A stretch of DNA of 64,000 nt from Cryobacterium sp. GrIS_2_6 (GTDB lineage: Bacteria > Actinomycetota > Actinomycetes > Actinomycetales > Microbacteriaceae), in assembly GCF_035984545.1 (NCBI RefSeq), contig NZ_JAXCHP010000001.1, positions 868,001 through 932,000 of the forward strand. Reading direction: 5' to 3'. Positions 4,887 through 63,645 of this stretch are shown here, one piece after another. The number at the start of each line of letters is the position of its first letter. Position 1 is the first letter of the stretch. Below the pieces are notes generated by a model. It worked only from the letters and a program-made list of their open reading frames with translations. It ran no database searches and had not been told where the DNA came from. Made by a program: the position numbers and the translations under genes.

Positions 4887-4930
4887 AGGTGAACGCCCCG
4901 TGGAGTAGACGAGGCGTGCAAGGGGTGCCT

Positions 4931-5647: not shown

Positions 5648-5717
5648 CTCTTTTGAAAGTCAGATGGACACTCACCGTGGGAACGGGAATGCCTTACATG
5701 CATAGCATACTGCCTGA

Positions 5718-6659: not shown

Positions 6660-6672
6660 TTATCGGCCTCGA

Positions 6673-10551: not shown

Positions 10552-10579
10552 GGTGCTTTCCTTCCGTAGATGTTGGTGG

Positions 10580-11265: not shown

Positions 11266-11341
11266 GAGGCCCCTTTCTGGGCAAAGGAAAAGGCCCCAGT
11301 CGGAGTGACGGGTGCCTCGGATGAATCGGTGGTTGCGTGTT

Positions 11342-46767: not shown

Positions 46768-49700
46768 TTACTCGGTTGCGTCGATGGTGCGAATGTTGGA
46801 CCCGTTGATTGACTCGACCACCGGGGAGGCCGCACACCGACAGTTGTGAACCACAATTCCATTTGCCAAATACCACCCGTGCGTGGTGTTGCAGTTGTAC
46901 ACTTGGGTATGAGCAAAATATCTCTTGACACTCAATACCTTGTTCGCGAATACCTCGGGGGAACTAGCGAGAAGGCTCTCGCAGTATCCTTCGGCGTCGA
47001 CCGCCGCGTGATCCGTCGGCATCTCATCGAGGCCAACATCCAGCCCCGAGATAGGAGTTCCGCCATGCTTGTTCGCATGTCCCGTTTGGGCGTCGAGGGC
47101 AGGCTGTCCCTCACGACCGCTGCTCATGAGGCCGTCCGGGGCAGCACTCAAAGCGATAGCATCAAGGCCGAGAGAGCTAGACGCAACGCGATCTACTTGC
47201 CCAACGTGAGCGTTTATGAGGACGCCCTCGTCGCCGGACTTGTCACGCGCGAGGTTGCCTTCACGAGGCAGCTCGCCTGCGGACCGTACAACGTAGACGT
47301 GGCCCTCGGAACCGTCGCCGTGGAAGTCCTCGGCGGCGCTTGGCATCGGTCCAAATCTCACGGGGAGCGCATCCGCTACCTCCTTGATAGTGGCTTCGAT
47401 GTTCTCTACATCTGGTCCGCCTTCAAGTACAGGGTCGACAGCGCCACGGCTGAGCACGTAATCGCCTTCACGGAGGTCGCCGGCCGGGACCCATCCATCA
47501 ACCGTCGCTACCGGGTGATTCGGGGTAATGGTCAGTTTCTGGCCGAGTTCCGTCACAATGTCGATGAAATCCCCGACATAGTGCCGTTCAGTGACCGACC
47601 CGAGACCGAGCCAGCTACCGTGCCCTACGGAATCTGCCACTGCGGATGCGGTCGCACGACCGCCATCGCCAAATCCGACCGACGAGGCCACCTCAAGGGC
47701 GAACCGATGACTTATATCAGCGGGCACAACCAGGCCCGTCGCGGCAGGTAAGCAGCGCGGGTGCACAGGCGGGGAATTGTCCGTGTCCGTGACCGGGTGC
47801 GGGTTGGCGGCCGCCACGTCGACACACTCGGAGCACGCGTCGTCGGAGAGGATCAGATCCCAGGAACCGACCCCGCTGGCGGAGTAGGAGTCGAGGGAGC
47901 CGAGGGTTTGCGCGCGGGCGATCTCCGTGTGAGCGATCAGTTGAGCCCGGGAATCCGAGCCGATCAGGTCGCTGATGGTGCCCGCGATCTTCTCTGACGA
48001 CCAGCCAGAGTCAAGCCCTGAGCTGATCCGGTTCCCGACCTGATCGAGCACCGTGTCTTCGATGCCCTTGACTGTGATCCCAGCACTATCCAGCAGCGCC
48101 CTCAGGCCGCCGTCAGCGACCAGTGAGGCAGCCTGCGCATCACCGGGCACCCAGGCGTCCCAATTGACGTCAGCAACGGCCTGACCGGTCATCCCGGCCA
48201 CACTCACCGCATGCGCGCCCAACTGCTGCGCCGCACCATGAGCACCCGTCAGATACCCGTCCGCGAGAAGCTGCCGAAGCACCGACTCGATCTGCGAACT
48301 GTCCGCGTTCGCGCCCAACATCTGCCGGGCCCGTGCGAACATCGCATCGCTGGCCGCATCCTTGACCAGTGCGCCCGAAAGCGAACCGATCACACCGGCC
48401 ACGTCCATCGACGCCAGCAGCGCCCGCATTGCGGTTGCCACAAGCGGCGTGTAGTGGTCGGTCAGGCGCAGATCGAATGCATGCTGGGGCACTTTGTCCG
48501 AAGAATCGCGCCACGACTTCTCAATCGCGGCGGGCACTAAAAAAGGGACGCTCTCACGTCCCTTCTTGTTCAGCATCTCCGCAATGTCCGGCGGGGCGAC
48601 CTCGAACTGGAAATCTCGCCACTTGCCCGCCTTCACCCGTGTCTTCGTGAACGAGCGGAATTTCACCAGCTCAGCCTGCAAAGCGTCCGTGGCATCCTTC
48701 ATCTTCACCGGCCCCTCCAAAGAGGAACCCGTCAGCCCGGTTGCAGCGGTGACCCCGGCCGTCTCGGCCTTCGTGATCGCACCGCCCACCGTGGGCATGC
48801 CATTCACGACATCGGACCCGGGGATGATGTGCTCAAGGTCCGGGAACGCGGGTTCGTCCGGGTTCGTCGGGGCCCGTTTGAAATCGGTCCCGCCTGGCAG
48901 CTTGTCCGGCAGGATCCCGCCGGCGCCCGCGAACGCGTCCAACCCCAACGGTTGCGCGTCGCTCGGCGCGCCCGTCTGTCCGTCGATCGTGCCAGAAATG
49001 GCCAGGATCGACGTCAACGGGACGAACCCGGTGCGAGCGGTGATGATGCCGCGAGGGATCGGGCGCTCGTTATCCACCGGCAAGCCCAGGAGCTCCTGAC
49101 GCATCTCGTCCATGGACGCCGCGCCAGTCTTGACGTACACCTCCCACGCCTGCGCCTCCATGAGACGGTCCTCTTTGTCCCGGCCGGTGTCCAGAGACAC
49201 GCGCACGGGCAGGCCGAGGTCGTGCTGCAGGTAACGGTTCAGGATCTGCTCCACGAACCGCACCCACGGCAGGGTGTTCACGCGGAACTGGATGTCGACC
49301 TGCGTCTCACCGTTGGCCCGGTTCACGTCTTTCAGAAGACCGAGATCCTGCGGGACCACGCCATACGCCGCGGCGACACGCGTCACGAGGTAGTCAGGGA
49401 ACAGCGGGTCGAAACCCTTGGGCCGGGTCTCCGAAATCTTGAAACCGGCCGGCACTGCGACGAGCTGGTGCAGCTTGGCCTGATCGCCCTGCACCACAGC
49501 GTCGTAGTAGTCCTGCCATTCCGCCACCTGATCCGGCGACGAAATATCCGGGGGCAGCTCCATGAACCCGGCCGGGACAGACCCGTCCGTGAACATCTGC
49601 AACAGGTGCCACTGGAAACGCATGTCCGTGTTCGCGGTCAGCATGATCGACTCGAGCGGCGCCAAACCGAACGGGGAATCCCCCTGCGGGCGGAACCGGG

Positions 49701-50337
49701 CGTAAATGAGATCCTCGGCCGTGTACGACGACCACGACTGGCCCTTGATCACCTGGTAGTAGGCAGGGGCGGGGGCATGAGGGCGGCGGCCGTGCGCGTC
49801 GATGCTCGGGAACACCGTCGAACCGTCGAGAATTTCCAGGCCGATGATCTGCCCGGCCATGTTCCGGCGGCGGTAAAGCACCCCGGCGTCGTAGCGCAGC
49901 TGGTTTTCCATCCAGATCGACAGCCACTCGTCGTACGGGTGCTCCCGGTCCGGGAAAGCCAGCACCGCGCGCGCCGCCTCGATGGCATCCTTCACATCCG
50001 AGGTCACGCCGGTGGCCGCCTGAAACAGGAGGCCCATCGACCGGATCTCATCGATTTTATGGTTAATGCACATACGAGAAACGTCGTAGGAGTTGACCAT
50101 CTCGCGCAGAGTATCGTACGAGGTGCGGCCCCACGCCTGCCGGGACCGAACCGCAAGGTTCACCCCAACCGGGAAGTCCATCGCCCGCGGCACCTGCGAG
50201 TACCCCGTCGACGGGACAGCCGGGCGACCCGGGCCCATCATCGTGGAACCCGTCATGCCCTGATCGGTCATGGCCTGATCGATCGCAGCCGGGACGCCGA
50301 AACCAAAGGACTTTGCAAGCCGTTCGAAGATACCCAT
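46768..50337 (-). CDS. Portal-MuF fusion protein carrying an intein
   Basis: 1189 residues before splicing, 885 after. Portal domain about 1-520 (VNSYDVSRMCINHKIDEIRS; LRYDAGVLYRRRNMAGQIIG; NRANGETQVDIQFRVNTLPW). Linker with an internal hairpin near residue 598. MuF minor-head domain about 680-885 (NRISSGLDSGWSSEKIAGTI; AHTEIARAQTLGSLDSY; DDACSECVDVA). The intein (residues 862-1165) interrupts the terminal HPR^CRC motif. Portal-MuF fusions are known in actinophages; MuF enters the head or is ejected with DNA. Confidence 0.92.
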   Translation of the reverse strand: MGIFERLAKSFGFGVPAAIDQAMTDQGMTGSTMMGPGRPAVPSTGYSQVPRAMDFPVGVNLAVRSRQAWGRTSYDTLREMVNSYDVSRMCINHKIDEIRSMGLLFQAATGVTSDVKDAIEAARAVLAFPDREHPYDEWLSIWMENQLRYDAGVLYRRRNMAGQIIGLEILDGSTVFPSIDAHGRRPHAPAPAYYQVIKGQSWSSYTAEDLIYARFRPQGDSPFGLAPLESIMLTANTDMRFQWHLLQMFTDGSVPAGFMELPPDISSPDQVAEWQDYYDAVVQGDQAKLHQLVAVPAGFKISETRPKGFDPLFPDYLVTRVAAAYGVVPQDLGLLKDVNRANGETQVDIQFRVNTLPWVRFVEQILNRYLQHDLGLPVRVSLDTGRDKEDRLMEAQAWEVYVKTGAASMDEMRQELLGLPVDNERPIPRGIITARTGFVPLTSILAISGTIDGQTGAPSDAQPLGLDAFAGAGGILPDKLPGGTDFKRAPTNPDEPAFPDLEHIIPGSDVVNGMPTVGGAITKAETAGVTAATGLTGSSLEGPVKMKDATDALQAELVKFRSFTKTRVKAGKWRDFQFEVAPPDIAEMLNKKGRESVPFLVPAAIEKSWRDSSDKVPQHAFDLRLTDHYTPLVATAMRALLASMDVAGVIGSLSGALVKDAASDAMFARARQMLGANADSSQIESVLRQLLADGYLTGAHGAAQQLGAHAVSVAGMTGQAVADVNWDAWVPGDAQAASLVADGGLRALLDSAGITVKGIEDTVLDQVGNRISSGLDSGWSSEKIAGTISDLIGSDSRAQLIAHTEIARAQTLGSLDSYSASGVGSWDLILSDDACSECVDVAAANPHPVTDTDNSPPVHPRCLPAATGLVVPADISHRFALEVASSVGFGDGGRATASAVADSVGHGSWLGLGSVTERHYVGDFIDIVTELGQKLTITPNHPVATVDGWVPAGDLREGDYVLSRGAVDPVLEGGPDVENIEATIKEVADALPVRFGPMPSAAEDFHGDGSEGHVYVVRSAGELPREGNLARDKSGDEGVLINAHVGQVDRVASSSLGLDAIALSAAPDGLMSSGREGQPALDAQTGHANKHGGTPISGLDVGLDEMPTDHAAVDAEGYCESLLASSPEVFANKVLSVKRYFAHTQVYNCNTTHGWYLANGIVVHNCRCAASPVVESINGSNIRTIDATE
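46843..47754 (-). mobile_element. Intein in the MuF domain, 304 aa
   Basis: Cys1 codon 47752..47754, terminal Asn 46843..46845, +1 Cys 46840..46842. Block A CLPAATGLVV; block B KLTITPNHPVATVDGW with the essential TPNH; then AGDLREGDYVLS; block F VYNCNTTHGWYL; block G NGIVVHN^C. All residues for Cys1/Asn/Cys+1 splicing are present. No LAGLIDADG or HNH domain; the about 160-residue linker between splicing halves is instead antisense to a homing endonuclease gene. Splicing restores HPRCRC. Confidence 0.92.
46909..47751 (+). CDS. Vsr-like homing endonuclease antisense to the intein
   Basis: 280 residues on the strand opposite the intein. N-terminal HTH (QYLVREYLGGTSEKALAVSF, then VDRRVIRRHLIEANIQPR, 9-47). 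Central PD-(D/E)xK/EDxHD (Vsr-like, DUF559-like) nuclease, with E115, D130 (YNVDVAL), E139 (VAVEVLGGAWH) and H146, then LLDSGFDVLYIW. C-terminal CHCGCG (243-248) and GHN (272-274), a motif shared by phage homing endonucleases. TACACT 5 nt before ATG resembles the leaderless promoter at 2623. TAA lies 3 bp inside the intein edge. GTG 46846 would also fit the frame. Confidence 0.88.
   Translation: MSKISLDTQYLVREYLGGTSEKALAVSFGVDRRVIRRHLIEANIQPRDRSSAMLVRMSRLGVEGRLSLTTAAHEAVRGSTQSDSIKAERARRNAIYLPNVSVYEDALVAGLVTREVAFTRQLACGPYNVDVALGTVAVEVLGGAWHRSKSHGERIRYLLDSGFDVLYIWSAFKYRVDSATAEHVIAFTEVAGRDPSINRRYRVIRGNGQFLAEFRHNVDEIPDIVPFSDRPETEPATVPYGICHCGCGRTTAIAKSDRRGHLKGEPMTYISGHNQARRGR
48538..48564 (-). promoter_or_regulatory. 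Terminator-like hairpin plus T TTT TTA heptamer in portal-MuF
   Basis: Minus strand AAGGGACG/CGTCCCTT (8 bp, 6-nt loop) followed by TTTTTTA inside the coding sequence at residues about 592-600, the portal-MuF junction. In the reading frame CCT-TTT-TTA, T-TTT-TTA is a perfect -1 slippery heptamer. A slip stops eight codons later, giving portal alone. Confidence 0.5.
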
Positions 50338-51891: not shown

Positions 51892-52580
51892 CAGGAAGCC
51901 CTCCTGACTGCCCAACGGGCAAGAAAATATTTATGGGGGAGCAGGACCAACCAGACCGGAAACCCCGCCAGATCGACCCACAACCCCGGGGGACGCCACA
52001 CCAGCCCAACCAGACCGGGAGAAAACGGTTTGGAGTCGAAAAAACCGGGGAAATGGGTGTGGGGGGTATTGCGGATTGGCCGTCACCTCTTTGGGGGGTG
52101 CGCTGAAAACTGACGGAAGTTTGAACCGGCCGGCGTAGTCGTGTCTGTGTGCGGCCTTGTGCGTCTGTGTGGGGCGTTGGATGTTCGGCGGGTGCGTCCG
52201 TCGCGGCGGTGCGTCACTGTGGCTCGTGTGTGGCCGTGGTGGCGTGCCGGGGTGATTGTGTGGCTGCCGGGTGCGGTCGTGGGTGCTCTGCCGCGTGCTC
52301 GCTGGGGTGGCGAGGTCGTGGCGGGCGGCCGTGTCGAGGTGTGGCCGGCCCGGGGTTGCCTGTTGTCTGTCCTGTTCGGCGTGTCGTCGACTGGGCGGGG
52401 CGTGAGGCGGGCGAATCAGGTGGGGGAAAGTGCTTGGGAATGGGTGGGTTTAGCCGGGCTGAAATCCGGGGTTATCCACAGGAAAAAGGCCGAAACTGAC
52501 ATAATACTGTTTATCGGTCACTTTTTCACCGAAGTTATCCACAGGGTAAATGCTCACCTGAAAATGTTCATGCCCCCATT
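51892..52580. other. 689-bp gene-free gap between terL and terS (junction of the two copies)
   Basis: The left part (51920-52030) is A/C-rich, 52090-52400 is G/T-rich with many GTG/TGTG words, and the DnaA pair lies at 52472..52480 and 52535..52543. Duplicate of 1..278 from 52303 onward. Open frames here are biased low-complexity. Likely packaging and/or replication control region; no cos recognised. Confidence 0.6.
52472..52543. promoter_or_regulatory. DnaA box pair (second copy)
   Basis: TTATCCACA at 52472..52480 and 52535..52543; same as 170..241. Confidence 0.6.
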
Positions 52581-53180
52581 TTATCGGGCATTCAACTCCC
52601 CGGCAGCAGCCAGGACCAGAGTCTCCCGCATCAGCCCCGGCATCAGCGACTTCTGCGCCGCACTCAACCCCAGCTGGGCCGAGTCGAGGACCGTCGTCAA
52701 CACCATGGCCATAAGCTCGCCTTGACGTTCAGCGAGACGCACCTGACGTTCACCAAGACCCGCCTGCACCGCCTTACTCGCGAAGGTGGCCAGACGGTCA
52801 CGCTCCAAAGACTCCAACTGTGCAAGACCGCGAATGTACTCGCCGACCTTGCCGAACTCGCCCATCGCATCACCGACCAGCGCATCACGCAGCGTGGGGG
52901 ACTCAGCGACCAGCTTCTCCAACTCGGCACTGTACGCATCCACGCGCATCCGCGACTGAGTGACCAGGCGCAGCAGGACCTCGCCCGGATCGTCCACAGC
53001 CTCACCCAAAGCCCACTTCGACAGCTGCGCGCGCACCATCGCACTCGACCGAACCTGAGGGGCAGCACCGCCATGAAAGCGACACACCATCCCCCCAGCA
53101 ATCGCCGAGTGCCCACACGGGCCGCCGCCATCTTTCTTCTGTGCCGTGCACATCTGCTTGACGACGTAAGCCCGAGGCAT
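52581..53180 (-). CDS. Probable terminase small subunit (second copy)
   Basis: Identical to 279..878; here it is seen in its true position upstream of terL. Confidence 0.6.
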   Translation of the reverse strand: MPRAYVVKQMCTAQKKDGGGPCGHSAIAGGMVCRFHGGAAPQVRSSAMVRAQLSKWALGEAVDDPGEVLLRLVTQSRMRVDAYSAELEKLVAESPTLRDALVGDAMGEFGKVGEYIRGLAQLESLERDRLATFASKAVQAGLGERQVRLAERQGELMAMVLTTVLDSAQLGLSAAQKSLMPGLMRETLVLAAAGELNAR

Positions 53181-53246
53181 CGAATCTCCCTACTGGGTAT
53201 ACATTCACCAAAGGGTGAGGCTCAGGCGTCCGGGTCGTGTGTGCGT

Positions 53247-53684
53247 TCATTCGGGGATGTACACCCACCGGTTGGTTTGTGGGTTGATGCCTGCGAGCTT
53301 GTAGCGTGCTGCACTGGCGGGTATGACTGTCACGGGGCCGTCGCTCATGAAGAGCTGCGGGACTACGACCACGGGGAGCATGATGTGTGCCATCCCGTTG
53401 TGTGATTTGACGAGCATGCCGTCGTGGGCGCCGCCTTCGATTTCGATGGGCTTGGCGTCTTCGGGGTGCCATGTGGCGGTGATGGTGCGCTCGAGGGTCG
53501 CGGTGTCTTCGCGTGCAGAGTATTGGACCGCTTCGGGGTCGAAGTCGCAGAGGCCGTGAGTGTCGGCGTATGTGACCATTTCGCGCTGGAGCTGATCGTG
53601 TGCCCAGCTTTCGGCTTCGGCCTGCAACATGATTGTTGGGTCTGAGATGTGCATCTTGGCGTGGAACGGGGCGACGTAGCTCAT
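53247..53684 (-). CDS. Hypothetical protein, 145 aa (second copy)
   Basis: Identical to 945..1382. Confidence 0.7.
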   Translation of the reverse strand: MSYVAPFHAKMHISDPTIMLQAEAESWAHDQLQREMVTYADTHGLCDFDPEAVQYSAREDTATLERTITATWHPEDAKPIEIEGGAHDGMLVKSHNGMAHIMLPVVVVPQLFMSDGPVTVIPASAARYKLAGINPQTNRWVYIPE

Positions 53685-53699
53685 TGGTCTCCTTCGCCC

Positions 53700-53831
53700 T
53701 TATCGGGTGCTCGGGTGCGCTTCGGCCAGGTGTTGGTCTATCTCTGTGGTGTCCCACACGCTTCGGACGTCGACCTGTGTTCCGCAGTGGTGGCAGGTGG
53801 CTGTGATCGTCTGTGCTCGTTGGTCACTCAT
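53700..53831 (-). CDS. C2H2 zinc-finger microprotein (second copy)
   Basis: Identical to 1398..1529. Confidence 0.65.
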   Translation of the reverse strand: MSDQRAQTITATCHHCGTQVDVRSVWDTTEIDQHLAEAHPSTR

Positions 53832-54165
53832 GGGCGCCGTGTATCGCGTCCGTGTGTGCTGCGAGTAGCTGGTCATACGTCAACGTGCTGCCACCGATGA
53901 TCGCTAGGACGCAGCGGGTGCAGGTGGAGAGTGTCTCGGGGGCGTTGGTGTGTGCGTTGGTGCGCGAAGTGTTGTCCGTGAGCCATGGTGGCTTGACGGG
54001 CGTCGCGTGCGGAGGCTTGCGGGATGTGCGCTCCCACGCTGCGCTGTACAGGCGGGGCTGGTACTCGGTGAAGCTCAGGAGGAGCGAGCCCTCCCTGTTG
54101 TCCCAGTACCCTGCCCGGGCGTCTTCGATACCGGCGCGGATCGCGCGTGCGTGACTGGTCTTCAC
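53824..54165 (-). CDS. Hypothetical protein, 113 aa (second copy)
   Basis: Identical to 1522..1863. Confidence 0.65.
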   Translation of the reverse strand: MKTSHARAIRAGIEDARAGYWDNREGSLLLSFTEYQPRLYSAAWERTSRKPPHATPVKPPWLTDNTSRTNAHTNAPETLSTCTRCVLAIIGGSTLTYDQLLAAHTDAIHGAHE

Positions 54166-54656
54166 TGGGTGGCCTTCCCTCTCGGGCTGAAGTATGCGGC
54201 GTTGAGGTCGCGGGGTGGGCAGCTTGCCTGCGCAGATCCGGATCCGGGCGAGGGTGGCGGGTTCTGCGGGCCAGCGTTACTCGTGCGGGGCTGCGAACCT
54301 TTGGAGATTGGTGTTCCGACGGGGCGAGGCCGCTTTGCCGCTGCGCTGTCCGAAGCTGGCGCGACTGCGGTGGGTGCAGATGTCGGCTCGGGTACGAACG
54401 CGAGGAGGTCCCTTGCCCGGTTCCATTCGCGGCGGTTGAACAGCTTGGGGAGGTCTTCCCACGCCCATGTGCCGGGGCATTGCATGCGGCCGTTGGTCTT
54501 GGCGACGATTTGGATGCGGCCGTGTTCGCATTCGCGGAGGTCGTCGAGCCTGAATAGCTTCGGGCCGCTGAGGTGGTCACGGCTGGGCGGGTTGGCCAGT
54601 GCCCGGCAGTGTGTGGCGTGCTGACGGGGCCGGTCGTCGTTCAGGTTCGGGGTCAC
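54162..54656 (-). CDS. Hypothetical protein, 164 aa (second copy)
   Basis: Identical to 1860..2354. Confidence 0.65.
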   Translation of the reverse strand: MTPNLNDDRPRQHATHCRALANPPSRDHLSGPKLFRLDDLRECEHGRIQIVAKTNGRMQCPGTWAWEDLPKLFNRREWNRARDLLAFVPEPTSAPTAVAPASDSAAAKRPRPVGTPISKGSQPRTSNAGPQNPPPSPGSGSAQASCPPRDLNAAYFSPRGKATQ

Positions 54657-54823
54657 TGGGCGCCGCCGTGGCCCTTGAAGATGTTGACCGTGGAGGGGGC
54701 TGCGGTCTTCTCGGTCTTGAACGGGGCGACAGCGACGGCGACCGCGAGGCCGACAGTGAGCGTGATGATAATGACACCGGTGCAGATAGCGCCGATCCAG
54801 CTGACGATTTCCCAGGGGTTCAT
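54653..54823 (-). CDS. Membrane microprotein, 56 aa (second copy)
   Basis: Identical to 2351..2521. Confidence 0.65.
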   Translation of the reverse strand: MNPWEIVSWIGAICTGVIIITLTVGLAVAVAVAPFKTEKTAAPSTVNIFKGHGGAQ

Positions 54824-54888
54824 GGTGTGCGCTCCGTTGTTGTTTTGGCCAGGATGTCGGGCATGCCGTATGAGGGCGGATACATGAC

Positions 54889-54936
54889 TGGGTTTACCCA
54901 ATTCCAGTACACTGTGTACTCGGGTACACTGTGTGG
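54889..54936 (+). promoter_or_regulatory. HTH operator/promoter (second copy)
   Basis: Same palindromes and TACACT box as 2587..2634. Confidence 0.6.
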
Positions 54937-55140
54937 ATGACTCGTGATGATGCCGTAGACGACCTCAAGGCGCTCGCCTCATACGATTTCGAGGCCGACC
55001 GCGCCCAACGCATCGAAGCAGCTCGATCGTCTGGCGTTACGTGGCGCGAGATCGCAGCCATCCTCGGCATGACCGATAACGGCGTTCACAAGGCCTACAA
55101 GAAGTGGTTAGCCACCAAAGAGCAGCCTCAGCCGATGTGA
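54937..55140 (+). CDS. Small HTH protein (second copy)
   Basis: Identical to 2635..2838. Confidence 0.75.
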   Translation: MTRDDAVDDLKALASYDFEADRAQRIEAARSSGVTWREIAAILGMTDNGVHKAYKKWLATKEQPQPM

Positions 55141-55493
55141 GCGGCGAACGCTGCAGCGGGCAAACCTGCGACGTCGACCGCGGGTAGTTCCACCCGTGAA
55201 GGGTTCGTTTCGAGCCCGCACACCGTGCACACGTCGACGGTGACCCGGATGGGAGCCTGCACAGTGCCCTCTAAGCGCGTAACAGGCTCCGTGGTGTGCT
55301 GGCAGAGGAGGATACCCCCGCACGAGCCACAGTGGACGGGCTGCGGAGTATCAGCGTGCACCTGCACGTGATGTCCGAGGTTCGCACAGCCGGGCTTCCC
55401 GCACACGACGGCGGCGACGGCCGGTGAACCCGAAGATTCGCCCTTGCCGCCGAAGGTGAAGCCGTGCTCAGCCTCAATGTCTGCGAGTGTCAC
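55128..55493 (-). CDS. Zinc-ribbon protein, 121 aa (second copy)
   Basis: Identical to 2826..3191. Confidence 0.65.
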   Translation of the reverse strand: MTLADIEAEHGFTFGGKGESSGSPAVAAVVCGKPGCANLGHHVQVHADTPQPVHCGSCGGILLCQHTTEPVTRLEGTVQAPIRVTVDVCTVCGLETNPSRVELPAVDVAGLPAAAFAAHIG

Positions 55494-55630
55494 TGGTCAG
55501 TCCTTAGCTTGATGTGCTGCATGACGAGGGCGAGCGCCTGCTCCTCGAGAAAACCCGCCTGCATGTAGGCGACGAACATCCGGAACGTTTCAGCGGCGTG
55601 TGAGCGCATCGCGGCGGAAGGTTCAACCAT
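55490..55630 (-). CDS. Microprotein, 46 aa (second copy)
   Basis: Identical to 3188..3328. Confidence 0.55.
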   Translation of the reverse strand: MVEPSAAMRSHAAETFRMFVAYMQAGFLEEQALALVMQHIKLRTDQ

Positions 55631-56118
55631 CACAGCCAGCCCTTCGCCTTGAAAACGGCCACGTAGGATCCGGGGAACACGCACCCGAAGTAACGGCGGT
55701 CCTCGAAGACCTGAATGCCGGCGCCATACACGTAGGCGGCATCAGCCAGGGCGGCGCACTGCAGTGTCTTTGTGGCCGATAGCCGGCGGAGTAGCCAGCG
55801 CGGGGTGCGCTCGTGCATGATCTGCTCAAGGCCGATCGCCACGTCGTCAATCCACGAGTACGGGCTGCCCTCGATGCCTTCACACCATGCGACGATCCCG
55901 GAACGCTCCGAGTCCGTGAGTGCGAACGACGACCAGTCGATGTGCCCAAAATGTGTCATCGGGCGGATGCGGGCCCCGGACTTCTCGGCGCCAATGCACA
56001 GCACCTCGTCCACGGCGACCACGACATGGTTCACGGGGGAGCGGGTGACGGCACGGATCAGCCAGCCAAGCGGGCCGCGCGTGCGGACGAGGCCGATCTG
56101 GCCGGCGAGCTCAGACAC
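55630..56118 (-). CDS. Permuted papain-like hydrolase (second copy)
   Basis: Identical to 3328..3816. Confidence 0.6.
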   Translation of the reverse strand: MSELAGQIGLVRTRGPLGWLIRAVTRSPVNHVVVAVDEVLCIGAEKSGARIRPMTHFGHIDWSSFALTDSERSGIVAWCEGIEGSPYSWIDDVAIGLEQIMHERTPRWLLRRLSATKTLQCAALADAAYVYGAGIQVFEDRRYFGCVFPGSYVAVFKAKGWL

Positions 56119-56665
56119 GGACGGCCAGCCTTTTAGCCATATCTTTGAGCGCCTTGTTGTGCGAGATGTCGAGCACGGGGCGGGCCTCAGCGCAGATGAC
56201 CGCGTTTCGGTGAACAGTCATTTCGTTGTCTTGAAGGGTCTCGCCCGAGGCGGACCAGTTGGTGGATCCGCCGATGCGCCACACGCCGTCGATGATCACC
56301 ATTTTCCGGTGAACGATAGCCCCGTGCTCAGACGTGCCGATGGCGACGGAGTTCGAGTCCATCTCGTGCTTGAACTTGGTCAGCAGAGCCTTCTCGTGCA
56401 CCCCGCCGGCCTGGGACTTGTCGAGGGTGATCTGCACGAAGATGGCGGGGTTGTCGATGATGTGCGCGATGATCTCGGCGAGTTCGTCATCGTCCCAGCC
56501 GAACATCGAAATGATAAGGCTGTGCTGCGCGGACGCGATGACGGCCTTGAGTGCCCCATGGACGTCATCGATGGGCGAGTAGAACGTGCGCGTGTCCGCA
56601 GGGTACGTGGGGTCGACGGGGGAGGCTTTGAACTGGTCGAGGTCAGCGATGGTCAGCAGTGCCAT
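56111..56665 (-). CDS. Phospholipase D-family nuclease (second copy)
   Basis: Identical to 3809..4363. Confidence 0.75.
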   Translation of the reverse strand: MALLTIADLDQFKASPVDPTYPADTRTFYSPIDDVHGALKAVIASAQHSLIISMFGWDDDELAEIIAHIIDNPAIFVQITLDKSQAGGVHEKALLTKFKHEMDSNSVAIGTSEHGAIVHRKMVIIDGVWRIGGSTNWSASGETLQDNEMTVHRNAVICAEARPVLDISHNKALKDMAKRLAVRV

Positions 56666-56685
56666 GGTGGGCCTCTCGATCGGTG

Positions 56686-56763
56686 TCACTTTTCGTCTAC
56701 CGTGTGCTCGGCGTCGAACTGGGTTGCGTAGGCTTCTTCGGTGTCGTCTTCGCGGCCGGTCAT
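56686..56763 (-). CDS. Acidic microprotein, 25 aa (second copy)
   Basis: Identical to 4384..4461. Confidence 0.4.
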   Translation of the reverse strand: MTGREDDTEEAYATQFDAEHTVDEK

Positions 56764-56846
56764 GGCTTGACCTTGTGCGTGCACAGGGTGGCGAGTGTGA
56801 TCGTGGGCCAGACGCGGTTGCAGTACTGGCACTGGAACGGGTTCAT
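56760..56846 (-). CDS. Zinc-finger microprotein, 28 aa (second copy)
   Basis: Identical to 4458..4544. Confidence 0.5.
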   Translation of the reverse strand: MNPFQCQYCNRVWPTITLATLCTHKVKP

Positions 56847-57073
56847 GCGCGCTCCCTGGCTTCTCTGCCGTCGAGTGAGCAATGAAGCACGTGCCAGCAG
56901 TCGCCGTCTCCGTCGTTGTGCACGGACGACGCAGGACCGCACCAGCAGTCGATCGCTTCGTGCTGCATCTTGTCCCGGTTCGGGTACCGATGCGCCTCGG
57001 GGTAAGACTCGAAATCCCAGATCCAGTATTTGCGCGTGACGAACGCCGTGAACAGCCATTTGAGCCGCCGCAT
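56843..57073 (-). CDS. Cys/His-rich protein, 76 aa (second copy)
   Basis: Identical to 4541..4771. Confidence 0.65.
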   Translation of the reverse strand: MRRLKWLFTAFVTRKYWIWDFESYPEAHRYPNRDKMQHEAIDCWCGPASSVHNDGDGDCWHVLHCSLDGREARERA

Positions 57074-57092
57074 GTTCGCCCTCTCGAAGAAC

Positions 57093-57188
57093 TTCCGTCA
57101 TCCCGCGCAGGTCAACCAGTCGTGAACAGGAACACGACCTCAGGGCTGCCTTCACCGCTATGGACGGTGTTGACGCGGGATGACGGAA
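57093..57188. repeat. 15-bp inverted-repeat element (second copy)
   Basis: Same as 4791..4886. Confidence 0.55.
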
Positions 57189-57232
57189 AGGTGAACGCCC
57201 CGTGGAGTAGACGAGGCGTGCAAGGGGTGCCT

Positions 57233-57394
57233 TTAGCCGGCGCAGTCGTCACACAGCCAGACACCGGGCCAGCACCACGGCGCTGGAAGGCTGCCACAGT
57301 GAATGCACGGATGCGGGGGTGTCACCGGGGGCAGCTTGCGGGCCTTGGCCTGTCGAGCGTAGGACTTGGTAAGGTCGCGCTTCGGCTTGCCCAT
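57233..57394 (-). CDS. Zinc-ribbon microprotein, 53 aa (second copy)
   Basis: Identical to 4931..5092. Confidence 0.6.
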   Translation of the reverse strand: MGKPKRDLTKSYARQAKARKLPPVTPPHPCIHCGSLPAPWCWPGVWLCDDCAG

Positions 57395-57697
57395 GTCGCG
57401 CCTTTCGGTAGGTGCTTTCCGCGCCCGCCCCGTTTTCCAGTCGCCTTCACGGCATAGGCCAGGACTCGCTCACCCGCTCACGAAACACAGTGTCTGCGGG
57501 GGAGGTCGTAGCCTCTCAGGGGATTTCATGGTGGGCGGGCGCGGAAAATATTGGGTGGATACAGCGAGGGGCCAATGCTCGCCTTGCGCGAATCGCCGTC
57601 GAGCAGCAGTCAGTCACGGTGGATTCGGGGAACACTCTGGGGATCGCTTCGTCTCGTGCTACCGCGACTAGACACCTGCTTGGGCTATGTGTATCCG

Positions 57698-57785
57698 CGG
57701 ATGTCGGAGGATTCGAACCCCTCACGGCTACAAACCGTGCCCTGGTATTCGACACCAGTGCCCCACCATTGGGACTTCGCCACCC
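57698..57785 (-). tRNA. tRNA-Ser (CGA), second copy with one extra D-arm base
   Basis: As 5396..5482 but with GGGG rather than GGG in the D-arm (plus-strand CCCC at 57761..57764). GTCC/GGGC can pair in both versions (8-nt loop here, 7-nt in the first copy), so folding does not decide which is right. Confidence 0.7.
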
Positions 57786-57918
57786 TTGAGCCCCGATATC
57801 TACCGTCGTGGCTAGCGCGTGTTCAGTTGTGCACGATGCCTGTTCGGTGCTCTCGTGCGCTCGTTGGCTTGCCTGCCGGTGAGCTACCGGCGTCTGCACT
57901 TCGGCAAGTTTTGGGCAC

Positions 57919-57950
57919 AAAAAAAGGGCGACTACCGAAGTAGCCGCCCT
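57919..57950 (-). terminator. UUCG terminator (second copy)
   Basis: Same as 5616..5647. Confidence 0.85.
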
Positions 57951-58020
57951 CTCTTTTGAAAGTCAGATGGACACTCACCGTGGGAACGGGAATGCCTTAC
58001 ATGCATAGCATACTGCCTGA

Positions 58021-58251
58021 CTATGAAGTCGTGCATCCATTTTCTCGGCGTGTTGTGCCGCCCTTGACGCTCGGGTTCGCGGCGGCATTCAACCGGAGCC
58101 GAGCCATGAGCACGCGGTGATCGATGACGATGATTCCGGCGACCTCGCGGCACTCCATGCCGTCGCGAATCCACTGGCTGATCGTGCGAGTTGTCCGGCC
58201 GGCTCGTTCGGCTGCCTTCCGGATCGTGTAGTTCGGCTGGTTGACGATCAC
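58021..58251 (-). CDS. Excisionase/MerR-like HTH protein (second copy)
   Basis: Identical to 5718..5948. Confidence 0.7.
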   Translation of the reverse strand: MIVNQPNYTIRKAAERAGRTTRTISQWIRDGMECREVAGIIVIDHRVLMARLRLNAAANPSVKGGTTRRENGCTTS

Positions 58252-58874
58252 CGTGCCGCCATCTTCTTAGCGAAATCGGCGCGCGCCCAGGCGTTGTGGC
58301 AGATCCTGCACAGCAGGTAACCACCTGATCTGACCGTCCCGTCGTAAGCGTGCCCCTTTGGGCAGTGGGTCTTCGCCATTGGATCACGGCGGACCTTCGG
58401 GACATAGGCATCACGGCCCTGCTGGTTGTGGCAAGTCCGGCAGATGCGCGATCCGCCGTCCATCTTCGTGTTTTCCGGACTGTACTCGTGCCCCTGCGGG
58501 CAATGGGTCTTGTTGGAACGAGCATTAGTCCCATGTTCCCGTTGGTCGAGCAAGTTTTCAGATTGCGTGCCATACCGCAGATTGCTCAGGGCGTTATTTC
58601 GAACGTTGCCGTCGAGGTGGCGCCGCACCATGCCCTTCGGCAGCGGGCCGACAAATGCCAGTAGGACGAGAGAGTGCACCTTGCGTGTGTGGCTCGTGCC
58701 ATTATGCAACCCAACATGCCCATAGCCGCCCGTTGAGGTGAACTGCTGGCGCATGATGATCGGTGCCGAGCGCATGAACGATCGCACGCGGCCGAGGTCG
58801 GAAACCTCGTATCCTGGGAAGTCTGGAATGGGCAGCCAATTCTCGGCGGCGGGAGCGTTTCGGGTACCATTCAC
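58248..58874 (-). CDS. NUMOD4-HNH homing endonuclease (second copy)
   Basis: Identical to 5945..6571. Confidence 0.9.
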   Translation of the reverse strand: MNGTRNAPAAENWLPIPDFPGYEVSDLGRVRSFMRSAPIIMRQQFTSTGGYGHVGLHNGTSHTRKVHSLVLLAFVGPLPKGMVRRHLDGNVRNNALSNLRYGTQSENLLDQREHGTNARSNKTHCPQGHEYSPENTKMDGGSRICRTCHNQQGRDAYVPKVRRDPMAKTHCPKGHAYDGTVRSGGYLLCRICHNAWARADFAKKMAAR

Positions 58875-58962
58875 GGTAGCCCTCCAATCGGTTAGACGAT
58901 ATGTGGGGTGAGGCCCCGCCAAGTGCGTCAAACACTCGTCGGGGCCGTCTCCATTCTATCGG
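58862..58962 (-). repeat. HNH leader cassette (second copy of copy A)
   Basis: Same as 6559..6659. Confidence 0.7.
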
Positions 58963-58975
58963 TTATCGGCCTCGA

Positions 58976-59710
58976 TCAGGCTATTTCTGCGAGATAGGCC
59001 GCATATTTCTTGGCGTCCGGTGTGACGACATGAGCACACCGACCGCACATGATCGAGACCTCAGGGTCGAATAGGTCGGGGGGCTTGCAAAAGATCTCAC
59101 GTTCCCCGCACACCTCGCACTCGCGCTTGTCTGCTGGGCGCACGGGCCGCGCTTCGACGCCATACATGGCTGAGAGGCTGAACACGCCTCGTGCGTCCTC
59201 GTGGCCCGCGGTTAGGTCATCGTGGTAGGCGACCGCGGACGGTGACTGTGCGATCTCTTCGGCCCTGTCGAGCAGCCAATCACACAGCCAGGATGCGAGC
59301 ATATGCGCGGCTTCCACGGATACGGGCTTGGACCCTTGGACCTCGCGGGTGTTCGCCCATGACGGGACGGCTGGCGGGGCGACGTGCAGTTCTTCGGCGA
59401 ACTCGGTGCACCATGAGAGCAGCTTGGCGAACAGTGCGTCACTCGCGTCGAGCGGCCCGATGTTCAGCGGCGCGGGCGAATTCCCGCCGCCCCCTGACAC
59501 CCGTTCGGAGTAGTCGGCGGTCCCCATGGTGAACAGCTGCGCGCGCATGTTCGCCATGAGGTCCGGGACCAGTTTCAGTGCTCCCCGGATCCGGTAGAAG
59601 CACGAGTCGCAGAGGATGCCGTGACGTGCGCCCTTCGGCCTGGGGGGTTCGTCGTCGATGGGGTCCCAGGTGCAACCTCTGGCACAGGGGAAGAGTTCTG
59701 CGTCACTCAT
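58976..59710 (-). CDS. Cys-rich protein, 244 aa (second copy)
   Basis: Identical to 6673..7407. Confidence 0.7.
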   Translation of the reverse strand: MSDAELFPCARGCTWDPIDDEPPRPKGARHGILCDSCFYRIRGALKLVPDLMANMRAQLFTMGTADYSERVSGGGGNSPAPLNIGPLDASDALFAKLLSWCTEFAEELHVAPPAVPSWANTREVQGSKPVSVEAAHMLASWLCDWLLDRAEEIAQSPSAVAYHDDLTAGHEDARGVFSLSAMYGVEARPVRPADKRECEVCGEREIFCKPPDLFDPEVSIMCGRCAHVVTPDAKKYAAYLAEIA

Positions 59711-59783
59711 TGCGCGCCTCCTGGGCTGCGAGCCATTCCGGCACGTCGTTGGTGAGCACGTAGTCGGCCTGTCTGCCGCTCAT
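59703..59783 (-). CDS. Microprotein, 26 aa (second copy)
   Basis: Identical to 7400..7480. Confidence 0.45.
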   Translation of the reverse strand: MSGRQADYVLTNDVPEWLAAQEARNE

Positions 59784-59998
59784 GGTTTCATCCTTCCGAT
59801 GATGTCTTTGCACGTCCCGCAGACCGGGTACTTGGTGAAGTCCTTCGTGGGGATGTCCCACTTGCCGCAGAGGGCTTCGATGGGCTGGCCGTCGATCCAT
59901 GCCTTGTCGAGGTCGGTCTTCTCGAAGTAGTGCGAGAAGGTGTCGTGGTCGCCGGTGTCCGTGGTGACTGGCTTGGTCCTTTCGAGGAGGTTGCTCAT
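59780..59998 (-). CDS. DUF3039-like protein (second copy)
   Basis: Identical to 7477..7695. Confidence 0.6.
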   Translation of the reverse strand: MSNLLERTKPVTTDTGDHDTFSHYFEKTDLDKAWIDGQPIEALCGKWDIPTKDFTKYPVCGTCKDIIGRMKP

Positions 59999-60204
59999 TC
60001 TTCGCTTCTTCCTCGCACGGGTATCACCCAGTGCATCCGGTGGGGCTTGTACACGGGGGTGCCGAGCTGGTCGGCGGTGAATCCGCGGGCTTCGAGTTCA
60101 GCGGCGAGGCCATCCATGCCCAGTTCGGCGAGGTCGGTTTCCTTGATACGGATCTCGTGGCCGCCGTTGACCTTCGCTGTGAGGTGCACGCGGGCGTCAG
60201 TCAT
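59995..60204 (-). CDS. Hypothetical protein, 69 aa (second copy)
   Basis: Identical to 7692..7901. Confidence 0.6.
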   Translation of the reverse strand: MTDARVHLTAKVNGGHEIRIKETDLAELGMDGLAAELEARGFTADQLGTPVYKPHRMHWVIPVRGRSEE

Positions 60205-60386
60205 CGCCACACCGATCTGCTGATCGCGAGCGAGAGAGCCTTGAACGCGTCACGGACGCTATCCAGCGACACGGGCGCGTTCTTGGTTGCCCGCACGAGA
60301 GCCTTCATGTACTTTCGGTACGCCACCTGTTCGTTGTGGTCGCTCGGTGCCCATGCTCCCGGGCGAAATGACTGCTTACGGCTCAT
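60201..60386 (-). CDS. Basic protein, 61 aa (second copy)
   Basis: Identical to 7898..8083. Confidence 0.6.
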   Translation of the reverse strand: MSRKQSFRPGAWAPSDHNEQVAYRKYMKALVRATKNAPVSLDSVRDAFKALSLAISRSVWR

Positions 60387-60619
60387 CGGGTCAACTTCCA
60401 GACCGGAACCGGGAACTCGATCCAGTGCGTGACGCCGAGGAACTTCTGGCCGCTGCCAACGTCGCTGTTCGCTTCCCACAGGGGGTCGCCGCCCTCGATC
60501 GGCCAACCGGACACCATGCACCCGTCGAAGATGAAAGCGACTCGCCCCGTCATCTCGTCCATCCGGGGCATGCCATCCGTGGCGATCTCGTGGACCTTGA
60601 TCTTGATCTTCTTGCTCAT
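60383..60619 (-). CDS. Hypothetical protein, 78 aa (second copy)
   Basis: Identical to 8080..8316. Confidence 0.6.
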   Translation of the reverse strand: MSKKIKIKVHEIATDGMPRMDEMTGRVAFIFDGCMVSGWPIEGGDPLWEANSDVGSGQKFLGVTHWIEFPVPVWKLTR

Positions 60620-60897
60620 CGTGCCTGCTCGCTCTCTGCGCCCTCAGGACGCGCCGGAATTGTGGGTGCGCAGTGCTCGGTTTGGACGATGGTCCATTCG
60701 TTTCGGCCGATCGCTTGGACGCGGATCCGCTTACCCTTCGCCGCGAGTAGTTCGTCCGCGCTGAACGTGCTGTCTGGGTATTTCGTGATCCATGCCGCCA
60801 GCAGTTCGCCCATCGACATCGCCTTCAGGGCGTCGAGCTGCTCGCTGGATGAACGCAGCCCTAGTCGCTTGGGGAACTGAATCACCGTGTCACTCAT
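60616..60897 (-). CDS. Hypothetical protein, 93 aa (second copy)
   Basis: Same protein as 8313..8594, here cleanly separated from its upstream neighbour by the ATGAGTGA overlap. Confidence 0.7.
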   Translation of the reverse strand: MSDTVIQFPKRLGLRSSSEQLDALKAMSMGELLAAWITKYPDSTFSADELLAAKGKRIRVQAIGRNEWTIVQTEHCAPTIPARPEGAESEQAR

Positions 60898-61168
60898 CGC
60901 TCTCTCCTTCGCTCTCTGCGGCCGTTTCAGGTTCCGCGCTTGTCGGTGTGCCCGGTGTGGGCGTTACGGGCTGTGCTGGGGGCTGGTGGGCTGCGGTGGG
61001 GGTTTGCGCGTCCGGCTCCCAGTGCCGCTTCTCGAAGTGGTCATAGGCGACCACCGCTTGCCACTGCCGCGATCCCATGAGCGGCACCACGTAGCCGCAG
61101 TGACGGCATGTGTACGGTTTGCGCTTCACGATGCCGAGCTTGATCAGCACGCGGCGGACCGCGCTCAC
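60890..61168 (-). CDS. C2H2 zinc-finger protein, 92 aa (intact version)
   Basis: GTG 61168 to TGA 60890. C-x2-C in YTCRHCGYV and H-x4-H in DHFEKRH; acidic Pro/Thr/Glu tail. This copy has TCGGTG where the first copy has TCGTG, and ends in the operon's standard 8-nt overlap, so it is the credible sequence. Confidence 0.7.
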   Translation of the reverse strand: MSAVRRVLIKLGIVKRKPYTCRHCGYVVPLMGSRQWQAVVAYDHFEKRHWEPDAQTPTAAHQPPAQPVTPTPGTPTSAEPETAAESEGESDE

Positions 61169-61719
61169 GAGGGCTGCTCCGTACTGGGGGTGACGGGCGG
61201 CGTGAAGAGGATCAGGAATGGCCCGATCAGGTACTCCTCGAGGTCCTCGCTCGTGCGCGGGTAGATGTAGCCATCCAGCAACCAGCCGTCCGGTGTCTTG
61301 CGTCCGACGCCATTGAGCCCCTTGACGATGCTCCACAGCGGCAGCGCGTCCAGTTCCTCGAACGTCGTGACCTCTCGCGGCTCAGGCTCACGGTAGGGCA
61401 GGGCCGCGAGGATTGCATCGACAATCCCACCGGTCACCTCGTCATCCTCCCAAGCGGGCGAGAAGTCATCCTGCGTCATCGTCCCGTACTGCCATGCCTC
61501 CCAGACGCGCCCACATGTGTAGGTGATATCTCGCAGGCACTCGGCGACAACCTCTCGCAGCGCTTCCCGTTCCGGCTCTCCTGCGGGAGGGGTGGGAATG
61601 GATTCGAGGTCTCCGCCTTCGATCAGCCCATCCTCGATTAGACCGGCGATGTCGTTGCCCGACCATCCGGCGAGTTCCACCACCGCGTTCTGCAATCTGG
61701 CCATCTTGTCATTGCTCAT
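61165..61719 (-). CDS. Acidic protein, 184 aa (second copy)
   Basis: Identical to 8861..9415. Confidence 0.65.
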   Translation of the reverse strand: MSNDKMARLQNAVVELAGWSGNDIAGLIEDGLIEGGDLESIPTPPAGEPEREALREVVAECLRDITYTCGRVWEAWQYGTMTQDDFSPAWEDDEVTGGIVDAILAALPYREPEPREVTTFEELDALPLWSIVKGLNGVGRKTPDGWLLDGYIYPRTSEDLEEYLIGPFLILFTPPVTPSTEQPS

Positions 61720-61850
61720 CGCTCGCCATCCTCGTATCGCCGTTCGTCCTGCTGGGCACCAAGCCATTCCTGACGGGCCTCCTCATCGGTCATGTCTCCG
61801 CGCTCCACTGCCCTGTCGATCTGGTCGTAAATGCGGTCCAGGTTGCTCAT
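61716..61850 (-). CDS. Acidic microprotein, 44 aa (second copy)
   Basis: Identical to 9412..9546. Confidence 0.55.
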   Translation of the reverse strand: MSNLDRIYDQIDRAVERGDMTDEEARQEWLGAQQDERRYEDGER

Positions 61851-62050
61851 GATTCGTTTCCCTCCGTGTCGGTTATCAGGTGTGCACCGCATGGCGGCTC
61901 GTCCTCAGCGTTCAGCCACCGGGCAATCCACCAGTTCCAGTGCTGGTTGCAGAGGGCGATGTTTTCGGTCTTGGACACGCCCAGTGAAGACATGGGCAGT
62001 ACCGGCTGTCCGCACGCGAAACACTTCACACGCTTGTCGTTCTCGCTCAT
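61847..62050 (-). CDS. Zinc-binding protein, 67 aa (second copy)
   Basis: Identical to 9543..9746. Confidence 0.6.
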   Translation of the reverse strand: MSENDKRVKCFACGQPVLPMSSLGVSKTENIALCNQHWNWWIARWLNAEDEPPCGAHLITDTEGNES

Positions 62051-62448
62051 GATTCGTCGTCCTTCGTGTCGTCGCTCGCTGCTCTCGCGTTCCATCCGGC
62101 AAGGAAGATGCTGTCGACCAGCAGGCTCTTGCCCTTGTTTCGGTGCATCCATTCCTCGTATGCCCGCTTCTGCTCAGGCGATTTGGGGGTGTCGCGGATG
62201 TCGCGCTTGTTCAGAGTGAATGCTTCGGCGCGGTGCTCCCGGAGCGCCATCTCGGCAGCGATCGCGCGGTCGATGGCCTTGAGCTCGTCCGACTCGGCGC
62301 GGATGTAGAACTCAGCGATCTCAGCCTTCGTCCACGTCATCAGGACTCGCCGTGATTCTGCGAGGCTCTGATTGCCCACCTTCGGGTGCAGGCCGAGGTC
62401 GATGCGCTCCTGCATGATGGCCTTGCGGATTTCGTCTCGGTTCGTCAT
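62047..62448 (-). CDS. Hypothetical protein, 133 aa (second copy)
   Basis: Identical to 9743..10144. Confidence 0.65.
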   Translation of the reverse strand: MTNRDEIRKAIMQERIDLGLHPKVGNQSLAESRRVLMTWTKAEIAEFYIRAESDELKAIDRAIAAEMALREHRAEAFTLNKRDIRDTPKSPEQKRAYEEWMHRNKGKSLLVDSIFLAGWNARAASDDTKDDES

Positions 62449-62855
62449 TCGTCTCTCCCTGTGTCGTCTGTTCGTGGGTGTTTGCGGTAGAAGTCGCTCT
62501 GAGATTTCAGGGCGGCATGATTCTGGGATGACAGGAGGTCGGCGGCGTGCTTGGCGAACAGATCGGCGTGTGTTCCGCGTATCGCCGAGTCACCCGCCAG
62601 TCGTGCGCAATCCGAGCAGACCTCGTGATTGACGCGGGGGCCGGTCATTCCGCCGCCGACCGAGAACCCGACGAGGTGCCGCCCGTTCTCGTCTCGCGCA
62701 TGGCGATCGAATCCGCAGATGCACGGCCCTGTGCCGCCGCTCTCAGCGGGCCCGGCCAGATGAACCTTGAGCCTCGGGCTGCTGCTGAACAGCGTGTAGG
62801 CCCCGCCTGGCTGTGAGCACTCAATCGTGATCAAGCTCTCATCTTCCTTGCCCAT
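62445..62855 (-). CDS. Hypothetical protein, 136 aa (second copy)
   Basis: Identical to 10141..10551. Confidence 0.65.
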   Translation of the reverse strand: MGKEDESLITIECSQPGGAYTLFSSSPRLKVHLAGPAESGGTGPCICGFDRHARDENGRHLVGFSVGGGMTGPRVNHEVCSDCARLAGDSAIRGTHADLFAKHAADLLSSQNHAALKSQSDFYRKHPRTDDTGRDE

Positions 62856-62883
62856 GGTGCTTTCCTTCCGTAGATGTTGGTGG

Positions 62884-62979
62884 TCATGTTCGAGTGCGTC
62901 GGCAAGGTGCTTGGTAGCAACCGCCGACCGTTCGAAGGGATGCTGCGGCCGCGGTGATCTGCGGCCAGGTGAGGCTCAC
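62884..62979 (-). CDS. Possible microprotein, 31 aa (second copy)
   Basis: Same as 10580..10675. Confidence 0.3.
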   Translation of the reverse strand: MSLTWPQITAAAASLRTVGGCYQAPCRRTRT

Positions 62980-63569: not shown

Positions 63570-63645
63570 GAGGCCCCTTTCTGGGCAAAGGAAAAGGCCC
63601 CAGTCGGAGTGACGGGTGCCTCGGATGAATCGGTGGTTGCGTGTT

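Follow-up and report, generated by a model that had tools for sequence, protein, structure and literature searches.

Inteins in which a homing endonuclease domain is nested in frame within the splicing domain are known (PMC8966425), as are an out-of-frame HNH endonuclease in a phage methylase, the ShiLan domain (PMC11855218), and homing endonuclease genes that lie antisense within group I introns, such as that for I-DsqI (PMC9548176). Here we examine a 64,000-nucleotide stretch of Cryobacterium sp. GrIS_2_6 (contig NZ_JAXCHP010000001.1, positions 868,001 to 932,000; hereafter the window, to which all coordinates refer unless a locus is named), in which a predicted splicing intein of a phage head gene (46843..47754, minus strand) is faced, codon upon codon, by a gene for a putative homing endonuclease (HEN; 46909..47751, plus strand). 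On the basis of sequence and structural modeling, it is very probable that an antisense endonuclease, translated separately, drives the homing of the intein. Judging from the portions of the three reports drawn upon here, the locus resembles the nested-endonuclease inteins in combining a Hint domain with an inserted endonuclease and in the predicted homing to an intein-free allele, but differs in that HEN stands outside the intein polypeptide, as a separate antisense gene on the same codons (PMC8966425). With ShiLan it shares an endonuclease in another frame of an in-frame insert, an association with actinophages and a stop-free host frame, whereas the ShiLan HNH occupies a third frame, no splicing domain was found there, and the words "antisense" and "opposite" are absent from the main text (PMC11855218); a ShiLan-type insert was rejected on architecture. 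I-DsqI is likewise encoded antisense to its host element, and is there expressed and cuts the empty site, but its sense strand is a non-coding ribozyme intron of rDNA, without a two-strand overlap of codons (PMC9548176). A group I intron was rejected for the present element, given a host frame that is open in 118 of 119 loci and sense selection at both element ends.

Vsr-like homing endonucleases of the EDxHD family were reportedly described by Dassa in 2009 from fractured genes with split inteins, where the endonuclease gene lies between the host-gene halves. The likeness of the window element to this system, to which I-Bth0305I belongs, lies in the Vsr-like catalytic domain (fold match 3r3p) and in the association with an intein; the difference is that the fractured host is reportedly split around the endonuclease, while the window host reading frame is whole and overlaps HEN. 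A fractured gene with a split intein was rejected, the host open reading frame (ORF) being continuous over 1189 aa. Inteins in head proteins of Salmonella and E. coli phages have also been reported (PMC8425127, PMC11162368), and the parts of these two reports drawn upon here mention an intein and separate homing endonucleases and leave an antisense HEN within the intein unmentioned; phages UPWr_S2 to S5 of the former are among the phage records matched by our HEN and intein searches. Among the papers listed in a literature survey with thin coverage of bioRxiv, none presents in its title or abstract opening an endonuclease antisense to an intein; a 2025 preprint on non-canonical actinophage inteins (10.1101/2025.01.02.630785), which to judge by its title surveys odd architectures and may include Gordonia phages, may overlap with this work. 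The initial annotation, made from the sequence of the window, knew of no described case. Within that survey the arrangement does appear to be undescribed, but it is no single oddity, as relatives were recovered across viral contigs, GTDB genomes and an intein-side search.

The host gene (46768..50337, minus strand) is one continuous, intein-interrupted ORF for the 1189-aa precursor of a portal-MuF fusion, which matches PF04860 Phage_portal (2.1e-21, Pfam scan) and phrog_2662 (portal; 2.6e-47), with a match to Phage_Mu_F (0.0012) that is under the Pfam cut-off. The intein comprises 304 stop-free codons, and its termini read HPR/CLPAATG...IVVHN/CRC (slashes mark the junctions). When scanned alone it matches PF14890 at 36.2 bits (6.7e-9), just over the cut-off of 35.8, and the whole precursor scores 32.0 bits, under that cut-off. 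Residues C1, T77, N79, H80 and N304 are invariant across 37 aligned inteins, and H303 is conserved in at least 90%; block B (T77-P-N-H80; 47515..47526, minus strand) faces HEN residues 203-206, and H303-N304 adjoin the C-extein Cys+1 (46840..46848, minus strand), whose codon is TGT at 46840..46842. The Hint ends were modeled with a predicted local distance difference test score (pLDDT) >90, disorder is predicted for most of the middle of the sense product, and intein splicing domains rank first in a Foldseek search with the model (best E 1.4e-3). An empty allele of the host gene is found in Arthrobacter phage Sonali, which reads HPR/CRC at the insertion site; the intein-free sites of Shivanishola and K1ind1 read VIN/CRC and HPN/CRS. 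We conclude that 46843..47754 is an in-frame intein with predicted self-splicing. It is highly improbable that the sense reading is instead a tolerated, non-splicing insert and the element a free-standing endonuclease gene lodged in a head gene: the disordered middle would suit such an insert, and the ShiLan insertion is a case of one, as described in part of its report (PMC11855218), but the invariance of C1, of the block B T and H and of N304, the sense constraint on the element ends, the PF14890 match of the intein alone and the lead of intein structures in the fold search all argue for splicing.

On the plus strand, the same bases encode P0002, a 280-aa protein (46909..47751) that runs from an ATG to a TAA. 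The codons of the two genes coincide, each triplet being the reverse complement of the other's, such that the HEN D130 codon GAC (47296..47298) faces intein V153, the E139 codon GAA (47323..47325) faces F144, and the stop (47749..47751) is made by the intein Leu2 codon TTA. The coordinates, register and stop given by the initial annotation are therefore correct, and the helix-turn-helix (HTH) and Vsr-like core that it proposed are supported by modeling. The AlphaFold 2 (AF2) model has a pLDDT of 89; model residues 1-55 match HTH-domain folds (HTH domain, HEN residues 1-51, 46909..47061), and the nuclease core (residues 97-218, 47197..47562) has as its best solved fold matches Vsr and the homing endonuclease I-Bth0305I (3r3p). 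The catalytic domain thus has the fold of a Vsr-like, PD-(D/E)xK type nuclease, and its acidic residues are conserved where the active site is expected; the resemblance seen to the EDxHD family is one of fold. A C-terminal CHCGCG...GHN segment (residues 243-274, 47635..47730) matches phrog_25114 (7e-6 over residues 237-274) and is limited to part of set A1, in long HEN forms; phrog_25114 has no assigned function, and the segment is possibly an added DNA-binding module. No match to the P0002 sequence was found in the PDB. Taken together, the plus strand is predicted to encode a separate HTH and Vsr-like, DNA-cutting enzyme. GC-rich DNA not uncommonly holds a long antisense ORF in this register, and the reading frame by itself is therefore of little weight; it is its conservation, as judged from the relatives, that goes beyond chance. 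The four other frames across the window element carry 9-14 stops each. The codon bias follows the HEN frame, because GC at HEN codon position 3 (0.725) is higher than at position 1 (0.625), which is the third position of the intein, and HEN identity is higher than intein identity against 7/7 relatives compared, whichever protein guides the alignment.

Comparison with other genomes indicates that the arrangement belongs to a widespread family. At E<=1e-3, 126 relatives of P0002 were found, and tblastn over 50,697 phage records gave 114 with HEN and 111 with the intein, in phages of Gordonia, Salmonella, Pseudomonas, Klebsiella, Vibrio and others; 60 records of each set were listed. Six listed intein matches are without a listed HEN match (Gordonia ViaConlectus, APunk, Sampson, Sedona, Keitabear and Kewpiedoll), with three Gordonia HEN records unlisted, and the two of the six that were examined, Sampson and Keitabear, both carry a diverged antisense HEN. 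The phage records that we examined have the head gene annotated and the antisense gene unannotated. A motif scan of viral contigs yielded at least 600 matches, of which at least 578 encode relatives, and 80 of these were kept for the locus set; the GTDB genome collection yielded 80 pattern matches, 33 of them relatives, under record titles of Actinobacteria, Chloroflexi, Proteobacteria, Planctomycetota, Cyanobacteria and other bacteria. Across the resulting 119 HEN-found loci, duplicates included, the minus-strand frame is open in the same codon register over the whole match in 118, the HEN frame has one stop in each of six, and, L106 excepted, none of the four other frames is free of stops at any locus. 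Using 65 residues of the intein N-terminus only as the seed, in order to lessen HEN bias, an intein-side search was made, of which the best 80 loci were kept, with 66 distinct antisense translations, 61 of them with complete boundaries. Of these 61 inteins, 58 face an antisense HEN (E<1e-50) whose frame stays open over 240 codons or more; L195 and L209 are shortened inteins of 191 aa, and L197 has 12 antisense stops with its intein frame open. Homologues do then keep the antisense pairing that the initial annotation proposed looking for, and the outcome that it named as refuting, conserved inteins facing a stop-riddled strand with no HEN homologue anywhere, is not what was seen: HEN has many homologues and is clearly under purifying selection. 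Automatic boundaries were obtained for 113 of 120 elements, the window included; nine, mostly with wrong edges, were set aside (L006, L059, L073, L083, L085, L095, L096, L115 and L116), and with duplicates removed 93 elements were counted. The N-exteins of 91 were examined for family at E<=0.01, giving Phage_Mu_F in 39, VG15 in 13 and Phage_min_cap2 in 8, the others being unclassified. By eye, antisense-HEN inteins also lie at other head-protein sites in L018, L041 and L107 (AC/C..C and TCAF/C).

Position 1 of an intein codon faces position 3 of a HEN codon and the reverse, and the sense and antisense hypotheses therefore predict opposite patterns of substitution. We counted single-change codons in the middle of the element (from intein codon 76 up to 60 codons short of the end) for 30 disjoint pairs, which were picked greedily by shared words, with one partner of each nearly identical pair dropped. 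The middle shows 897 changes that are HEN-silent and sense-changing versus 328 that are sense-silent and HEN-changing, whereas the flanking N-extein shows 196 HEN-silent versus 793 sense-silent changes (Fisher p 3e-145 for the contrast). The sign holds in 28/30 pairs for the middle, even though these were aligned by the sense protein, and in 30/30 for the extein; 29/30 pairs have a middle that is better conserved as antisense than as sense protein. Along the element, binned over 20 overlapping pairs, the sense pattern is seen in intein codons 1-15 and 45-60 and in the last 45, and the antisense pattern in the middle; change is reduced for both proteins in codons 15-45, and the two kinds of change are nearly balanced in codons 60-75 and in those 45-60 from the end. 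The window element itself shows a HEN-silent excess against seven of seven relatives under either alignment. These patterns indicate that HEN is the main gene in the middle and that the splicing ends are sense-driven, and they bear out the initial annotation's supposition of selection on both strands.

Codons of individual residues are frozen. HEN D130 is Asp in 108/108 distinct loci, E139 is Glu in 107/108 and H146 is kept in 102/107; among loci carrying only the other search motif, D130 is kept in 32/32 and E139 in 18/19. Opposite a kept D130 the intein uses no codons but GTC and ATC, and opposite a kept E139 none but TTC and CTC; for comparison, GTC makes up 370/1102 Val codons in the N-exteins. 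From the codon register we infer that FHGDG, which looks like a motif of the intein, is a mirror image of the active site of the nuclease. Between the first antisense stop and the last 20 codons, TTA, CTA and TCA account for 2/4354 Leu and Ser codons, as compared to 143/1875 in the N-exteins.

We considered whether GC-rich codon bias merely keeps the plus frame open, such that conservation of the intein is reflected on the other strand. An ORF poor in TTA, CTA and TCA does leave its codon-on-codon antisense open, and short mirror images of block B do score against the HEN profile (L173, E 6.5e-15). However, the middle is more conserved as antisense in nearly all pairs and its changes are mostly HEN-silent, AT-rich loci are also open (L178, where another frame has up to 40 stops), the antisense protein is predicted to fold as a nuclease, a free-standing homologue exists, and Shine-Dalgarno-like signals in the family exceed synonymous expectation, as described below. 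Such a mirror artefact is extremely improbable, and at the family level it is refuted by the substitution patterns, the freezing of codons and the strength of the Shine-Dalgarno signals.

Several points, the L173 similarity among them, do count against a functional antisense gene. The set of 119 loci was found through HEN itself; the 61 complete inteins derive from the best 80 among the matches listed by a scan whose seed was built from HEN-bearing inteins, and the first set already included 14 of the 80 contigs. Two pairs lack a HEN-silent excess in alignments guided by the sense protein, namely L031-L062 (16:14) and L004 with the window element (18:13), the latter giving 10:16 when aligned by HEN. 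Over the whole intein, sense identity is higher than antisense identity in 5/20 overlapping pairs (L031 with L062 and L063; L109 with L021, L025 and L026). Finally, the Pfam nuclease matches of HEN, to DUF559 (13.8 bits) and MTES_1575 (14.4 bits), are under the curated gathering cut-offs (20.6 and 38.2), also in the relatives scanned.

The start of the antisense gene falls within intein block F. An ATG or GTG stands at a fixed place, 60 bases from the C-terminal edge of the intein, in 71/93 elements, but this frequency is no higher than expected from synonymous recoding (0.763), and the start codon is as such not evidence. Many starts are preceded by GGAGG- or GAGG-like sequence, which arises on the strand opposite block F motifs like HVYNL(E/Q)T. 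The mean anti-Shine-Dalgarno (anti-SD) energy is -6.23, versus -3.37 after synonymous recoding with the host gene's own codon usage, and 0/200 recoding replicates were as strong as the observed mean; 62% of the 93 elements reach -6 kcal/mol or stronger. The Leu of VYNL is CTC in 59/83 elements, versus 362/1212 N-extein Leu codons. At the other end, the antisense frame of 89/93 elements meets its first stop within intein residues 2-22, and Leu2 is TTA or CTA in 33 of the 37 elements with Leu2, versus 104/1212 N-extein Leu codons. In the family, the putative HEN ribosome-binding site is inside block F and the stop is often the Leu2 codon.

The window copy departs from this pattern. In its start region (46885..46911, plus strand) block F reads QVYNCNTT, where HVYNLET-like sequence is commonest in the family, the ribosome-binding site is weak (dG -2.8 versus the family mean), and the codon at the fixed position is TTG (46903), with the ATG (46909) six bases downstream. 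Because of the weak site and the TTG, expression of the window HEN is uncertain, and it is possible, if rather doubtful, that the arrangement works in the family while this copy has lost HEN production and persists as a splicing intein only. Arguing against such a loss, the downstream ATG is available, the frame is intact with D130, E139 and H146 retained, and HEN-silent changes predominate in each comparison with its relatives. Furthermore, initiation without a Shine-Dalgarno sequence is common in actinobacteria.

Evidence for mobility comes from filled, empty and possibly decaying alleles. Among Gordonia phages with the Vivi2-type head gene, the site is empty in Shivanishola, whose flanks are 96% identical to those of Vivi2, and is filled by a 316-aa intein in Vivi2 and by a different, 275-aa intein in Keitabear; the latter type is also present in Sampson (genus Zitchvirus), and a third intein type occupies the site in Lennon, Thing3, Nordenberg and Barsten. 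Within the Guernseyvirinae, K1ind1 is empty and Snoke is filled; the Snoke head protein matches 1331 phage records, with at least 80% of its length covered in 75. Between Snoke and Salmonella phage SGPC, the intein has 36 base differences over 272 codons and the N-extein 243 over 243 codons, and because the intein is so much more alike than the N-extein, recent transfer of the element is the simplest explanation. HEN is shortened or stop-ridden while the intein stays open in L115 (3435..4016), L195, L197 and L209 (intein starts of the last three at 2501, 173 and 2501), and these are possibly stages of decay, which would be expected from the homing cycle. Within a Thermoleophilia metagenome-assembled genome, a phage-like region (L106) holds an intact 231-aa HEN (3495..4190, plus strand) beside an intein-less MuF gene (4174..5220, minus strand); the two genes are convergent with a 17-base overlap, and the antisense frame of this HEN has two stops. 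The HEN protein therefore also exists as an ordinary gene, and L106 is the one clear case among the 119 loci of the free-standing relative that the initial annotation had suggested seeking. It is improbable, in our estimation, that the antisense nuclease is real and yet serves another function, such as the exclusion of rival phages or DNA repair, and merely shares the locus. Vsr-like folds do serve in repair too, and the target of HEN is here predicted only; but HEN sits in an intein that is patchy among relatives at one site, Snoke and SGPC are much closer to each other in the element than in the flanks, HEN is shortened or stop-ridden in some open inteins, and its best fold matches include a homing endonuclease.

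From these data we infer splicing, antisense translation, cleavage and homing as follows. From the minus strand, the two ends of the element would form a Hint domain that splices the insert out of the head protein, and from the plus strand the same codons would be translated separately into the HTH and Vsr-like nuclease. This enzyme would cut the intein-free allele at the HPxC/RC junction, and repair after the cut would copy the whole element into the empty allele. The arrangement probably originated when a gene for an endonuclease that cuts the MuF site, such as one of the free-standing L106 type, was inserted in reverse orientation into a mini-intein loop; there the absence of TTA, CTA and TCA from the frame would keep the host protein readable. 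The intein would thereby give the endonuclease a harmless location, and the antisense gene would give the intein mobility while being made apart from the precursor.

A second, apparently independent origin of the arrangement is suggested by the third intein type at the same MuF site. On the antisense strand of the Lennon-type intein (Hint_2; L127 974..1798 in Lennon, and L128, L129 and L130) lies a 236-aa ORF that contains a LAGLIDADG-like motif. No LAGLIDADG profile of Pfam matches the Lennon ORF itself, but P0125, a relative, scores above the cut-off of LAGLIDADG_1 (3.2e-8), and I-MsoI was hit at 6.1e-4. When Lennon is compared with Barsten, antisense-silent changes outnumber sense-silent ones by 27 to 2 over intein residues 90-200, and the host gene shows 1 versus 26 and 1 versus 14 on its two sides. 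The distribution of this ORF is narrow, with 12 matches in phage records (nine Gordonia and three distant), and a search of viral contigs returned no confirmed relative. In L118, a diverged antisense HEN (3501..4103, 26% identity) faces Hint-like sequence that resembles the Lennon type by eye. Considering both families, we think it likely, with somewhat less assurance than for the homing role of HEN, that these elements form a class of two-strand selfish genes: inteins with an opposite-strand homing endonuclease whose signals lie inside the splicing motifs. Such a class would have had two or more origins in phage head genes (Vsr-like and LAGLIDADG-like) and would have reached the phages of many bacterial phyla, with FHGDG as a shadow of the nuclease.

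To our knowledge, long protein-on-protein antisense overlaps with selection on both strands have rarely been demonstrated. The present family offers a large natural set of antisense overlaps in which one-strand-dominated regions serve as built-in controls, together with many candidate site-specific nucleases with predictable targets. A mobile intein could in this manner carry an endonuclease that is expressed on its own schedule, outside of the precursor. For annotation, it is a warning that motifs conserved in one frame may belong to the opposite frame.

Lastly, HEN occurs three times in the host assembly, 52.3 kb apart (G000:C1, 810302, 862607 and 914909), and window positions 1..11698 and 52303..64000 are two copies of one sequence whose ORF offsets drift by one or two bases; the repeat of the window ends and HEN would reflect either a tandem prophage or an assembly effect.
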